In this document: one piece after another, positions 7,018 through 59,630 of the stretch
Layout of the letters: each line of letters opens with the position of its first letter
How positions within the stretch are numbered: the stretch's first letter is position 1
NCBI GenBank assembly: GCA_947175265.1
Contig: CAMWMD010000001.1
Span: 62,001 to 126,000 of the forward strand
Length of the DNA stretch: 64,000 nucleotides
Reading direction: 5' to 3'
Source: an uncultured Porphyromonadaceae bacterium
Lineage (GTDB): Bacteria > Bacteroidota > Bacteroidia > Bacteroidales > Muribaculaceae
Notes under the pieces: model-generated
Database searches by the model: none
What the model was told of the DNA's origin: nothing
The model's input: only the letters and a program-made list of their open reading frames with translations
Position numbers and translations under genes: made by a program

Positions 7018-7289
7018 TTTTTATAATTGTCGTTTATTTTAAATAACAAATACCGTGCCGAAAAGTGTCATTGCAACAAAAAACTCTTTTTTGGAAAACA
7101 ACACTTTCATTTAAGTGTATGGAGCCTTTGTGAAAGTAACTAATATTCTTGCCCTATTGTAAAATAAGTCTCCCTTGTAAATTCCTTTTGCTTTCTTTGT
7201 GTTTCAAAATTATTTGCGCTTACCTTATTTTTCTTCAAAATATCTCTCGAACTTCCCCAAAATTTGAATTTTTGTGATTTTTTAATTTT

Positions 7290-7414
7290 TGGAACGGAAC
7301 GATTTTAACAGAATTTCACAGTTTTATTCGCTCAAATTCAGCAATAACTTACAGTGCCTTTATGTGTTACAACTTTCTCCTTATCCTGCAACACGTTCCA
7401 CCCCCGGAACGATT
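7290..7414 (-). repeat. Dispersed 125-bp intergenic element, copy A
   Basis: Read on the minus strand it begins AATCGTTCCGGGGG, then TGGAACGTGTTGCAGGATAA, then about 70 diverged bases, and ends TTAAAATCGTTCCGTTCCA. The core from TGGAACG to CGTTCCA is 7290-7400, exactly 111 bases, the same length as the other two copies (31924-32034 and 59226-59336). The ends align without gaps. This copy has a perfect CGTTCC/GGAACG inverted repeat at its 5' edge. Similarity to copy B continues past the 3' end to 7217. Its left end lies 162-175 bases from the DUF4293 start. Function unknown. Confidence 0.85.
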
Positions 7415-7506
7415 CCTGAGCATTACTTCCTCCAAGGGAAATCTCTTTTTAATTAAAGACCCGTGTTTTTGGAATCTAACCATGACGGAAATTAAATCTT
7501 TTTGGT

Positions 7507-7514
7507 TAAATTTG
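7507..7514 (+). promoter_or_regulatory. Putative -7 box of the DUF4293 gene
   Basis: TAAATTTG followed by C is a perfect match to TAnnTTTG, 61 bases before the start codon. No good TTTG lies at the usual distance upstream. Confidence 0.45.
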
Positions 7515-7575: not shown

Positions 7576-8037
7576 ATGGTAATACAGCGTTGGCAATCTG
7601 TGCTGCTTCTCGCGGCTGCCGTTATGATGGGTATCTTTACCTTCTGCTCCCTGGGACAAATTCAGACGGAAATGAACACATTCAACTTCACTGCACTGGG
7701 AATCTCACAGGAAGGGAAAGGTGCTCCTGAATATATCAGTTACTCCACAGTGTCTCTTTTCATCATCTCTCTCACTTCAATGATTCTACTTCTTATAGAT
7801 ATTTTCTTATATAAGAAATTGCCACTTCAAAAGAAGATATGTCTTGTTTCCGTATTATTTATAGTGGCATCGGCAGCGGAGGCCGCATATATAGGTTACT
7901 CTACTGTCCCGGGAGGAGAGATAGGGTGGTCGTCTGTAATATGCGCCCCTGTGATTGCCCTCATAGCAACGATAATGGCATACCAGAGAATGCAGAAGGA
8001 TCACAACATGCTCAAGTCGGTTGACCGCATCCGCTGA
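7576..8037 (+). CDS. DUF4293 family four-helix membrane protein
   Basis: A 153-residue integral membrane protein with four predicted helices: about 6-28, 55-74, 83-104 and 114-133. The opening VIQRWQSVLLLAA is typical of the Bacteroidetes-specific DUF4293 family, which has no established function. The short basic C-terminus (QRMQKDHNMLKSVDRIR) would lie in the cytoplasm. The gene is monocistronic: it has its own -7 box upstream and a hairpin between it and proS downstream. Confidence 0.85.
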   Translation: MVIQRWQSVLLLAAAVMMGIFTFCSLGQIQTEMNTFNFTALGISQEGKGAPEYISYSTVSLFIISLTSMILLLIDIFLYKKLPLQKKICLVSVLFIVASAAEAAYIGYSTVPGGEIGWSSVICAPVIALIATIMAYQRMQKDHNMLKSVDRIR

Positions 8038-30320: not shown

Positions 30321-31787
30321 TTACTGTTTCTTCTTGGCAGGATCGCAGGTGAGACCGACTCCGAGTTTTTTGAATATCTTATGGTCTACTTCACCAAGCA
30401 TCACTGTAGAATGTATCTGACACCCGTTAAGTTCGGGAAGTTTCTCAAGAGCCTTCTTGCAGTCCTCATTGCGAGTGCTCAGAACAGAGAGAGCCACGAG
30501 AACCTCATCGGAATGTAAGCGGGGATTCTTTCCCTTGAGGTAATTCAATTTTGTGTACTGTATCGGTTCTATCAATTCCTGTGGAATAAGTTTCACGTTA
30601 TGGTCTATTCCGGCAAGATGTTTTACGGCGTTCAGGATAAGAGCTGAACTTGGACCAAGCAAGTCACTTGTTTCCGCAGTAATAATAGTGCCGTCAGACA
30701 ACTCTATAGCTGAACATGGTTTACCGCATTTCTCAGCCCTTTCCCTTGCAGCGCGTACCGGCTTTCTGTAAGAGAGGTCAATGTGTGCCTGTTTGAAAAG
30801 CAGGGAGATTTTGTTGACCTCCGACTCATTTCCCTTACCTGTGGCGAGTTGGTTGAGTGCTGCGAAATATCTGCGTATAATCTCGTTTTTGGAAGCATCT
30901 CTGCAGACCTCATCATCATCGATACAGTTTCCTACCATATTTACACCCATGTCTGTAGGTGACTTATAGGGATTCTCACCGTATATCCCTTCAAATAGCG
31001 CATTGAGCACGGGGAATATCTCGATGTCTCTGTTATAATTGATTGCCGTCTTTCCGTAAGCCTCAAGATGGAACGGGTCAATCATATTAACATCGTTAAG
31101 GTCGGCTGTCGCTGCCTCGTAAGCGATGTTGACGGGATGTTTCAGGGGGAGGTTCCAAACAGGGAAGGTTTCAAATTTGGCATATCCCGCCTCCACACCG
31201 CGCTTATGCTCATTGTAGAGTTGGCTCAAACAAACGGCCATTTTCCCGCTACCGGGACCGGGTGCAGTGACGATAACGAGTGGGCGAGTGGTCTCGATAT
31301 AATCATTATTACCGAATCCCTCGTCGGATGCAATGAGATCAACATTATTGGGGTAGCCGTCAATGGTATAGTGATAATATACCTTTATGCCCAATCTTTC
31401 GAGACGTTTTCGGAAAGAATCCGCGCTGATTTGTCCGTTGTAATGAGTGACACAAACCGAACTTACGAGAAACCCTCTCTTCTGAAACTCTTCACGAAGG
31501 CGGAGCACGTCCTCATCGTAGGTAATACCAAGGTCGCTTCTAACCTTGTTTTTCTCAATGTCGAGGGCACTGATTACAATCACGATTTCGGCATGATCCT
31601 TGAGTTGGCCGAGCATTCTCAGTTTGCTGTCGGGCTGAAAACCCGGGAGAACCCGGCTTGCGTGGTGGTCATCGAAAAGTTTTCCTCCAAGCTCAAGATA
31701 GAGTTTGTTGCCGAATTTTGCTATTCTCTCTTTGATGTGTTCCGACTGTATCTTCAGATACTTGTCATTGTTGAATCCGTATACCAT
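30321..31787 (-). CDS. DUF1846 family protein
   Basis: A 488-residue cytosolic protein from the ATG at 31787, opening MVYGFNNDKYLKIQSEHIKERI, the hallmark of DUF1846. The family is conserved in Firmicutes, Actinobacteria and Bacteroidetes, and structures exist, but the reaction is not established. A P-loop-like turn APGPGSGKMAVCLSQLYNE is visible near residues 178-196. A TTG four codons upstream is rejected because it lies inside the -7 promoter box. That leaves a leader of only a few bases. Confidence 0.9.
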   Translation of the reverse strand: MVYGFNNDKYLKIQSEHIKERIAKFGNKLYLELGGKLFDDHHASRVLPGFQPDSKLRMLGQLKDHAEIVIVISALDIEKNKVRSDLGITYDEDVLRLREEFQKRGFLVSSVCVTHYNGQISADSFRKRLERLGIKVYYHYTIDGYPNNVDLIASDEGFGNNDYIETTRPLVIVTAPGPGSGKMAVCLSQLYNEHKRGVEAGYAKFETFPVWNLPLKHPVNIAYEAATADLNDVNMIDPFHLEAYGKTAINYNRDIEIFPVLNALFEGIYGENPYKSPTDMGVNMVGNCIDDDEVCRDASKNEIIRRYFAALNQLATGKGNESEVNKISLLFKQAHIDLSYRKPVRAARERAEKCGKPCSAIELSDGTIITAETSDLLGPSSALILNAVKHLAGIDHNVKLIPQELIEPIQYTKLNYLKGKNPRLHSDEVLVALSVLSTRNEDCKKALEKLPELNGCQIHSTVMLGEVDHKIFKKLGVGLTCDPAKKKQ

Positions 31788-31796
31788 AACGGATTG

Positions 31797-31828
31797 CAAA
31801 GTTAATAAAAAATAATAAAAAAATCAAA
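31797..31828 (-). promoter_or_regulatory. Promoter of the DUF1846 gene
   Basis: On the minus strand TTTG (31825-31828), a 20-base spacer, TAACTTTG (31797-31804). The start codon is at 31787, so the mRNA should be almost leaderless. Confidence 0.75.
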
Positions 31829-32167
31829 GAAAATGATAAAACCTAAATAAATGGTCAGGAGTTCTTTCATTATAAATATTTTCTCAAGAGAATGCATCCT
31901 TATTCTGCAAATTGTTTCAGTGATGGAACGTTTTGCAGGATAAGAATAATATTATAACACATTAAAATCCACTGTTTAACTAAAGAATTTGAGCTCAAAA
32001 TCCCTAAAAATCATGTAAAATTTGTTCCGTTCCAAAATTTAAAAAAATGCCAAAATTCAAACTTTGGGCATGTTCAATAGATGATTTTAGAAAAATAAGG
32101 TAGGCGTATATAAAATCGTAAGGTAAAGAAAGTGGCCGGTATTTGAAAGACTACTTTAAAAATGGTC
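31829..32167. other. Intergenic region between DUF1846 promoter and ilvC terminator
   Basis: AT-rich and non-coding. It holds copy B of the dispersed element (31910-32034, similarity to copy A extending to 32106). No tRNA or open frame of note. Since ilvC is convergent from the right, nothing is transcribed rightwards from here into a gene. Confidence 0.6.
31910..32034 (+). repeat. Dispersed 125-bp intergenic element, copy B
   Basis: Starts AATTGTTTCAGTGA, continues TGGAACGTTTTGCAGGATAA, and ends GTTCCGTTCCA at 32034. The core from TGGAACG is 31924-32034, 111 bases, the same as copies A and C. Conserved mid-positions include TTATAAC at core 29-35. The flank 32035-32106 also matches copy A (CAAAATTCAAA, AAAAATAAGGTA, GCG). 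Its left end is about 120-140 bases from the DUF1846 start, on the divergent side. Confidence 0.85.
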
Positions 32168-32203
32168 CCAAAAAAGACAGGGGATTCAAACGAATCCCCT
32201 GTC
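32168..32203 (-). terminator. Terminator of the ilv operon
   Basis: Perfect 12-bp stem GACAGGGGATTC / GAATCCCCTGTC with a four-base loop; on the minus strand a run of T follows. It lies 34 bases after the ilvC stop. Confidence 0.88.
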
Positions 32204-44410: not shown

Positions 44411-44600
44411 TGGCTTAAAATTTGTAAATTTATTTTGTCGTAGGAATATATTATTAAATAATGTTAAATGTTGGGTAATTTTATATGTTTTATAACATAT
44501 TTTGAAAAATAAATTGTAATTTTGCAATGAGTTTTTCATGGTATTAGATTTTAAGGTTAACAGAAGATTGGTTGTCGGGATGACAATCAATTTTTTTTGC

Positions 44601-59211: not shown

Positions 59212-59336
59212 AATCGTTTCAGGGGTGGAACGTTTTGCAGGATAAGGAGGAGATTGTAACGTGTTAAGGGATAGTTGGTAATGGGAGGATTTTTCGGGAA
59301 ATAATCTTAAAAATTTGTTAAAATCGTTCCGTTCCA
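59212..59336 (+). repeat. Dispersed 125-bp intergenic element, copy C
   Basis: Starts AATCGTTTCAGGGG, continues TGGAACGTTTTGCAGGATAA and ends TTAAAATCGTTCCGTTCCA at 59336. The core 59226-59336 is 111 bases, equal to copies A and B; the first 20 core bases are identical to copy B, and the last 21 to copy A. The middle is diverged and G-richer. Downstream similarity stops soon after the A-rich run, with only GAATTTTGG left. The left end lies some 350 bases from the amylase start. Confidence 0.85.
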
Positions 59337-59594
59337 AAAATAAAAAAAACGAATTTTGGCGAGACCCTGTGAAATTTAGAACAATTTCTGAGGTTGCCGA
59401 AATGTTTAGGTGGTATGTAATGAAGTCGAAAAAATATCACTAAAGAAATAGTTTCTAAAACTTCTTCTTTTTGACCACAACCCAACTTGAAAGACTTCAT
59501 TTTAGAGAACATCCCAACTTAAAGTGCAAAGAAAGGTAAAGGAAATAACAATGTAGGCTTATTCTACAAAACAGGATATTAATGAAGTACACCT

Positions 59595-59630
59595 TAATTA
59601 TTAAAGGGACACTAATTATTAAAGGGACAC
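59595..59630. repeat. 18-bp tandem duplication
   Basis: TAATTATTAAAGGGACAC occurs twice in perfect tandem (59595-59612 and 59613-59630), about 150 bases before the PepSY-like gene. Confidence 0.9.

Follow-up and report, generated by a model that had tools for sequence, protein, structure and literature searches.

An intergenic repeat of a Muribaculaceae genome forms the middle of a decayed ISAs1-type miniature transposon, and ends of related transposons tend to lie at a set distance from predicted promoters

The window analysed here is the whole 64,000-nucleotide stretch of DNA from an uncultured Porphyromonadaceae bacterium (Muribaculaceae in the GTDB lineage), referred to below as the host. 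An earlier note had claimed three gap-free copies of an intergenic element in it, at 7290-7414 (minus strand), 31910-32034 (plus strand) and 59212-59336 (plus strand). All three were present, with 125 bases aligned, and the span from TGGAACG to the last CGTTCCA was 111 bases in 3/3 copies, as that note had also said. The ends were conserved as claimed but do not bound the repeat, as weaker conservation extends about 60 bp further left and about 200 bp further right. The features of the three loci are given below. The R2 scores come from a model of the right arm alone, which was built because the first search had required the left motif, and all promoters were predicted from the consensus -7 box only.

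7088..7096: target-site duplication TTCCAAAAA on the right side of copy 1, 9/9 identical to 7466-7474
7097..7465, minus strand: copy 1, whole miniature transposon (MITE), outer end to outer end, with inverted ends; left end CACGGGTCTTTAATTAAA, 3/18 off consensus; right end TTAAATGAAAGTGTTGTT, inverted, 4/18 off consensus
7129..7249, minus strand: right arm of copy 1, R2 E 5.7e-18, the copy being part of the R2 training
7290..7301, minus strand: right direct-repeat site of copy 1, CGTTCCGTTCCA
7394..7411, minus strand: left hairpin site of copy 1, CCG form, CGTTCCGGGGGTGGAACG
7466..7474: target-site duplication TTCCAAAAA on the left side of copy 1
7507..7514, plus strand: -7 box TAAATTTG of the DUF4293 gene (predicted promoter), 49 bp from the left end of copy 1
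7576..8037, plus strand: DUF4293 gene facing the left end of copy 1 (PF14126, E 1.2e-31)
30321..31799, minus strand: DUF1846 frame facing the left end of copy 2 (longest frame; PF08903, E 4.7e-179)
31797..31804, minus strand: -7 box of the DUF1846 gene, CAAAGTTA on the plus strand (predicted promoter), 60 bp from the left end of copy 2
31857..32202, plus strand: copy 2, element remnant (left arm, core and decayed right arm); left end AGGAGTTCTTTCATTATA, 7/18 off consensus
31913..31930, plus strand: left hairpin site of copy 2, TCA form
32023..32034, plus strand: right direct-repeat site of copy 2, TGTTCCGTTCCA
32085-32202, plus strand: right arm of copy 2, R2 E 3.6e-8
59215..59336, plus strand: core of copy 3, from the hairpin (TCA form) to CGTTCCGTTCCA; no left arm detected
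59488..59596, plus strand: right arm of copy 3, R2 E 3.6e-9, the copy lying outside the R2 training

The -7 box of the DUF4293 gene is found at the same position in the related genomes G116 and G022, and that of the DUF1846 gene at the same position in relatives without the element. The DUF1846 gene probably starts at the ATG at 31788. That the left end faces the start of a divergent gene, noticed earlier for the three window copies, is general, being true of 24/28 copies with a called left gene (simple frame finder, after removal of two duplicate rows; in one copy no gene was called). This orientation fits the placement of related transposons relative to promoters, described below. Left genes were scanned in 20 of the 24 cases, and 17 had a family, including DUF4293, DUF1846, amylase, outer-membrane barrel, sulfate permease, amino acid kinase, GrpE and QueF. 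Apart from OMP_b-brl in two and AAA-ATPase_like in two, the families did not overlap. The lack of a common theme argues against a simple regulon.

The left motif, TGGAACGNNTTGCAGGATAA, has three mismatch-free matches in the window and four at up to three mismatches, compared to 0.02 expected from dinucleotide-preserving shuffles. In the whole host genome (3,247,183 bases, 95 contigs), 29 copies were found at up to two mismatches, and the reversed-pattern control gave none. The right motif alone was not beyond chance in the window, with three matches at one mismatch versus 1.28 expected, 13/100 shuffles reaching three. In the 28 genome copies with both ends, the span was 111 bases in 25, 112 in two and 110 in one. 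R1, a sequence-only model built from 27 copies, found 31 places in the host genome at E < 1e-9, including one extra full core and two half copies. The alignment used below (A2) likewise holds 27 copies and leaves out the truncated L010, L020 at 767 and the later-found C38, C29, C27 and C56. TGGAACGT is invariant in 28/28 copies, 27 of which had been picked up by the left-motif search allowing two mismatches. The average for TTGCAGGATA is 0.94, and none of the 28 copies departs from the right pair at more than two positions. The middle of the core averages 0.675, and the left end 0.56, an underestimate from 15 copies aligned ungapped. The middle had been described as strongly diverged and free; it is diverged but not free, as mean pairwise identity is 0.56, with 0.83 for the best pair. 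To judge from these two identities, the core copies are old.

The unit first described and the mobile unit differ: the former occupies the middle of a miniature transposon (MITE), now decayed, of about 340-370 bp. The earlier suggestion of a small mobile element was therefore right about the kind but not about the unit, the mobile ends lying outside it as ISAs1-family terminal inverted repeats. In an alignment of the copies with their flanks, GGCTCTTTCATTTAA is found about 62 bp left of TGGAACG, and its exact inverse, TTAAATGAAAGAGCC, at about +270 to +300 in copies retaining the right end. The outer ends of the host-genome copies have decayed to varying degrees, and several copies keep both. 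Insertion sequences of the ISAs1 family in Bacteroidales, about 1.53 kb long, have matching ends (CACGGCTCTTTCATTTAA, inverted). The element has the usual marks of a MITE: inverted repeats in common with an autonomous element (GGCTCTTTCATTTAA and its inverse); short, non-coding, dispersed copies (29 by the motif, 334-369 bp where both ends are clear); and a 9-bp target-site duplication. The duplication is exact in copy 1 and, among the matches listed, in 10/19 paired elements elsewhere, two more pairs sharing 10 bp by eye. Across 29 rows for the host genome, in which ends were placed automatically and some wrongly, the duplication scored 9/9 in one (copy 1), 6/9 in one and lower in the rest (range 1-6 of 9).

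When its first three bases are included, the outer end reads CAYGGCTCTTTCATTTAARA; the species-genome collection gave at least 118 stretches containing it, and 12 viral contigs contain it as well. Among the matches listed were 17 paired elements, four of 1527-1589 bp, nine of 165-198 bp and four in between. The two transposases tested, from 1.53-kb elements, scored 235 and 225 bits with the NCBIfam ISAs1 model (cut-off 70) and matched PF01609 plus PF13808. In the host genome a decayed ISAs1 transposase frame lies beside an identical end (G000:C14:42037; 28.5 bits, E 8.2e-7, under the cut-off of 70). Given the same ends on ISAs1 elements, the duplications and the transposase matches, the window family is a MITE population using ISAs1-type ends. 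A protein-based search of the viral contigs for the transposase gave no relative. Two of the loci with the ISAs1-type end pattern among the matches listed, L243 and L251, are titled Clostridiales and Clostridia.

At the copy 1 locus, conserved anchors that are 675 and 668 bp apart in the host are 342 bp apart in G116 and 334 bp apart in G022. In the alignment the element is absent at this site in both genomes, and the region is 333-334 bp shorter there. The length difference is smaller than the 378 bp of a 369-bp element plus a 9-bp duplication; hence the region has also been altered by other means. In G128 the corresponding region shows a 453-bp gap with other sequence inside. The DUF1846 locus is of no use as an empty-site test, because the neighbouring sequence differs between species. 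Elsewhere, three loci (L202:1501-1520, L209:1501-1520 and L014) have common sequence outside the right end of the element, with the end of an RHS-like gene at two of them by eye. About 20 bp of element end is left at L202 and L209, and the L202 copy adjoins a decayed ISAs1 transposase frame. Sequences identified by eye as IS66-like interrupt the copy at L010 (G000:C4:65172-66181) and abut the right site of the copy at L029.

At E < 1e-4 the R2 search found 25 places. R1 had already located a core at 24 of them, but 22 of the 25 were part of the R2 training, and of the three new ones two had a core. The exception, C8:18690 (L366:1500-1740), has a right arm without a core and a palindrome, GGTTAAC...GTTAACC, in the core's place, and single outer ends without a core were seen at C14:42037, C11:18202 and C46:2607. 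Of 33 copies, eight lacked a detectable left arm and eight a right arm, these still having at least part of the core. No core was found in 130 loci with ISAs1-type ends (840,334 bases, among the matches listed), which held two left-motif matches with three mismatches each and two right-motif matches with one mismatch, none of them paired. R1 gave no convincing core in 110 other genomes of the genus or in 396 others of the family sample; the two samples overlap, and stricter filters were applied. Weak copies may be missed at this step, since the best 28 (genus) or best 7 (family) candidates were scored per genome. The pattern of both site pairs also gave nothing in the 110 genus genomes. The species-genome collection, from which the window's own genome may be missing, contained no exact left-motif match, and the core, with one copy as query each, had no match in the phage and plasmid collections. 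Weak partial R1 matches came up in G086, G105, G029 and G314 (E 8.6e-4 to 6.6e-3). On inspection those in G086, G105 and G029 were judged to be chance matches, even if in two of them a short GAAACGATTTT stretch resembles the surroundings of the right site. A left-motif match in a viral contig falls inside a frame resembling a DNA polymerase gene and was likewise judged a chance match. As far as searched, then, the core is lineage-specific. The earlier note had named scarcity in related genomes as evidence against its proposal; for the core that scarcity is what the 110 genomes gave, but within the host genome the copies are many. Its statement that no described family matches holds for the core and not for the mobile vehicle, which belongs to a described family, ISAs1.

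The consensus of the Bacteroidetes -7 box is TANNTTTG, which reads CAAANNTA on the element's strand. In the host genome, a -7 box was found left of TGGAACG in 19/28 copies and none in 9/28. Nine of the 28 copies had the box 121-127 bp from TGGAACG, that is, 59-62 bp from the element end; two more left-arm copies had it at 48-49 bp and one at 71, and most other boxes were at least 98 bp away. The test set in other genomes, mostly of Bacteroidales, consisted of 131 ends among the matches listed, 126 of them with at least 170 bp outside, from which three flanks were dropped as near-duplicates or for unread bases, to give 123 non-redundant flanks. Gathering these flanks with an exact end pattern biases the matches listed toward ends that are young and intact. 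A CAAANNTA box pointing away from the element was present in 82/123 flanks, and 41/123 had no perfect box (among the matches listed). In the same listed matches, 49 away-pointing boxes were at 59-62 bp, 33 of these at exactly 60, with smaller peaks of 7 at 49-51, 10 at 70-72, 4 at 38-39 and 2 at 80. Among the matches listed, 17 boxes faced the element instead; these were spread over 29-162 bp, five being at 68-74.

Several controls bear on this register, all of them on the matches listed. Random flank shifts of up to 50 bp gave a mean of 3.3 and a maximum of 11 boxes at 59-62 in 2,000 rounds, versus the 49 found, and none of 29 letter-permuted patterns reached more than 5 in any 4-bp window of the same flanks. 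The satellite distances were phased at 10.5 bp (n=31, mean resultant 0.59, Rayleigh p about 2e-5). Counting 60 itself and the positions whole turns of 10.5 bp to either side of it, 75/123 ends had a box no more than 2 bp off, compared to 82 with any box. With viral contigs counted singly, 33/65 assembly labels gave at least one end at 59-62. By family, again among the matches listed, the 49 ends came from Muribaculaceae (23), Prevotellaceae (6), Bacteroidaceae (3), Porphyromonadaceae (2), Salinivirgaceae (1) and Tannerellaceae (1), with 13 viral or without a family label. The right-type ends, which have CCCTTACCC just inside and were defined as a class after inspection of the data, had 0/14 boxes at 59-62 and a box elsewhere in two; by comparison, 45/104 other ends and 4/5 short-interior ends had one at 59-62 (among the matches listed). 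In four full-length insertion sequences the left end faced the box, at 59, 60, 60 and 51, and in short MITEs either end could do so, the right end sometimes. The ten elements with exact duplications among the matches listed had boxes at 59, 60, 51, 71, 39, 70, 71, 90 and 60, with one exception at 129, and three of the ten had a further box.

In the 33 flanks with the box at exactly 60 (among the matches listed), CAA was weakly enriched some 20 bp closer to the element than the -7 box, where a -33 box should lie. The 9 bp that are duplicated had no consensus there. The sequences outside the ends are mutually unrelated and have promoter signals alone in common, which we read as target choice by the promoter. 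The same promoter distance in transposons of gut Bacteroidales thus suggests mobile DNA that finds its targets via promoters.

Class I activators such as CRP contact the alpha C-terminal domain of RNA polymerase near -61 and at whole helical turns further upstream. The insertion positions seen here, near -60 counted from the start and whole turns away, coincide with these. We propose that the register arises at insertion, with RNA polymerase serving as the address. The transposition complex would be positioned by the promoter itself, most likely via bound polymerase, whose alpha C-terminal domains reach as far upstream as the insertion position and are probably the point of contact. Insertion would then take place just upstream of the polymerase and on one helix face, so that the gene is spared. 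Insertion directed in this manner would make the fixed distance, the single orientation and the absence of a gene theme all understandable, and it fits the left genes better than a classical regulon. The core, less certainly, would be a two-site protein-binding module, an inverted pair and a direct pair of CGTTCC sites 111 bp apart, which the host has kept under selection after decay of the MITE and at which a DNA-binding protein may bridge or loop the DNA upstream of promoters. A protein that bridges both ends, one of the possibilities raised in the earlier note, is our preferred reading of the core. We thus view the core as a putatively selected two-site DNA-binding module, carried upstream of promoters by a promoter-targeted transposon, that would act on the promoter. 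It is probable that each copy is a decayed ISAs1-family MITE with its ends near promoters, inserted at a position set by polymerase and carrying a selected, foreign 111-bp core. The general scheme, in which ISAs1 complexes address promoter-bound polymerase about 60 bp from the -7 box and on one face, passengers install the module and the 111-bp core is selected, is put forward tentatively, at somewhat less than even chance.

The left site of the core shows a further regularity. It reads CGTT-CCG-GGGG-TGGAACG or CGTT-TCA-GGGG-TGGAACG, plus a few further substitutions. In the 27 aligned copies the CCG form occurred 11 times and the TCA form 16 times, with no intermediate, and five further copies also had one or the other form by eye. 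On a tree of the remaining core, which is short and weak, there were 10 changes of form versus 8.8 for shuffled labels, and the close pairs L014/L019 and L002/L024 differ in form. With two forms, no intermediate and a scatter over the tree, the two bases change as a pair. Either a protein that reads both at once or a hairpin in which exactly one pair is non-Watson-Crick would fit. On the plus strand both natural forms fold with seven pairs, exactly one of them G-U. The computed energies are -8.1 and -5.9 kcal/mol for the natural forms and -8.8 and -5.2 kcal/mol for the absent intermediates, which do not single out an RNA reading of the joint change and leave a balanced RNA switch behind the two forms unsupported. 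Avoidance of a CCAGG methylation or restriction site would account, by eye, for one missing intermediate and not the other. The interleaved inverted pair TTGCAGGATA ... TATTCTACAA, considered as an RNA pseudoknot, is mostly C-A mismatched and shows no matched changes by eye, and this reading was rejected.

These folds bear on the possibility that the core is a structured RNA or a small-RNA gene, an RNA closed by its ends having been among the earlier suggestions. The phylum does have paralogous small-RNA families, such as FopS at 44529. Against an RNA, 0/11 predicted pairs had two-sided changes across 27 copies, and folding was no better than that of shuffles (z -0.14 to -0.74 on the plus strand, -1.33 to 0.04 on the other). 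No Rfam match to the element reached its gathering score; at a lax threshold, with the copy 2 region alone, there were 15 matches, each far below it. A conserved promoter for a transcript of the core was not seen by eye. The RNA explanation is accordingly improbable, and the structured RNA of the earlier note is not supported by these comparisons. Gene conversion, or needs of selfish transposition, could keep the core alike without host selection. Short-tract exchange would scatter the hairpin forms over the core tree much as was seen, and in REPIN populations replication maintains the ends. Conversion, however, would not be expected to act in tracts of about 10 bp beside a freely drifting neighbourhood, and as to selfish need, the outer ends, which are essential for transposition, are the most decayed part measured, and the ISAs1 elements among the matches listed lack the core; we consider this origin of the conservation unlikely, if still worth serious attention. 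We regard it as rather unlikely that the core is a putative site pair of a replication or partition protein of a mobile element, picked up by the MITE. That idea comes from a single divergent core, C56:12392 (L079:5390-5515; E 3.8e-4), in which all four half-sites are GTTTC/GAAAC, the span is 102, no arms are detectable and a 13-bp palindrome is present. It directly follows the 3' end of a gene for an AAA_25 ATPase that has a helix-turn-helix at its C-terminus, and eight plasmids of Bacteroides, Phocaeicola and Butyricimonas carry relatives of this ATPase (35% identity). The joint change of four half-sites is as expected if all serve one partner.

Survivorship is the alternative to targeting for the promoter register: insertion could occur anywhere, with promoter-sparing insertions alone remaining. 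Most elements do sit a little outside the promoter core, at positions where an insertion does little harm, and the comparison covered ISAs1-type ends alone among insertion-sequence families. But survivorship predicts a lower bound on the distance rather than a peak 4 bp wide with satellites at about 10.5 bp, and it leaves unexplained both the lack of a peak for the right-type ends (0/14 among the matches listed) and the in-register boxes of the ten exact-duplication elements (the one at 129 excepted, among the matches listed). It is thus a decidedly improbable account of the register.

Targeting by the promoter, the reading we favour, has parallels. In yeast, the transcription machinery directs Ty1 and Ty3 to integrate upstream of promoters, so that the gene is spared, as in the targeting proposed here; these are, however, unrelated retroelements that use RNA polymerase III factors. 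CRP-type class I activators occupy the same positions on one face, but they bind to activate, whereas here the positions are insertion sites. We know of no bacterial DNA transposon with targeting by promoter position and helical register, and among open-access papers, judged by title and the opening of the abstract, none came up on ISAs1 elements inserting in a promoter register, which is weak evidence of absence. In the portions consulted, PMC9208149 lists ISAs1 among the families over-represented between convergent genes, which counts against a promoter register, and places insertion sequences often less than 100 bp from genes with no fixed register given, and PMC3281130 mentions ISAs1 for its distribution alone. 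If the register does reflect insertion, a bacterial insertion sequence would pick its target by promoter position and helical register, providing a route for placing a ready-made regulatory site at the same spot upstream of many promoters. The transposon ends would then be natural promoter markers in uncultured Bacteroidales, and a promoter-directed insertion tool would be conceivable.

Compared to ISAs1 (H-repeat type, with an IS4-like DDE transposase), the window copies have the outer inverted repeats and 9-bp target duplications in common. They differ in having no transposase, in their length of about 340-370 bp and in their core, for which the insertion sequences gave no match. REPIN/REP sequences with RAYT have palindromic ends at a set distance, a drifting middle and intergenic dispersal. 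The window element resembles REPINs in its palindromic ends, set distance and drifting middle but differs in its outer boundary, an ISAs1-type inverted repeat with a target duplication. A RAYT connection was rejected: the genome has three PF01797 matches, two over the cut-off, and none is flanked by the element's motifs. The three Y1-transposase loci (about 3.2 kb) held no left motif, outer end or TTGYARRATA, and single CGTTCC/GGAACG hexamers only. Correia, ERIC and RUP are short, dispersed intergenic inverted-repeat elements that can affect neighbouring genes; their ends differ from those of the window element, and to our knowledge no promoter register has been described for them. The R''/R' boxes of integron attC sites are RYYYAAC and GTTRRRY, which the GGAAC/GTTCC ends do not fit by eye. 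The MITEs of Bacteroidales, BrickBuilt and others of Porphyromonas gingivalis, are like the window copies in being non-coding, intergenic and multi-copy, in sharing inverted repeats with insertion sequences and in spreading cargo (PMC4596501). BrickBuilt, as described in the part of that source consulted, differs in having other ends, a cargo of 23-nt tandem repeats, a distance of 49-591 nt from coding sequences and no fixed register (PMC4596501).

The FopS small RNA of the window lies at 44529-44600 (Rfam RF04319, 78 bits). Each of three related genomes has several copies, 78-97% identical, of the surrounding DNA (44451-44600), and from these matches FopS looks like a multi-copy RNA family in the genus.
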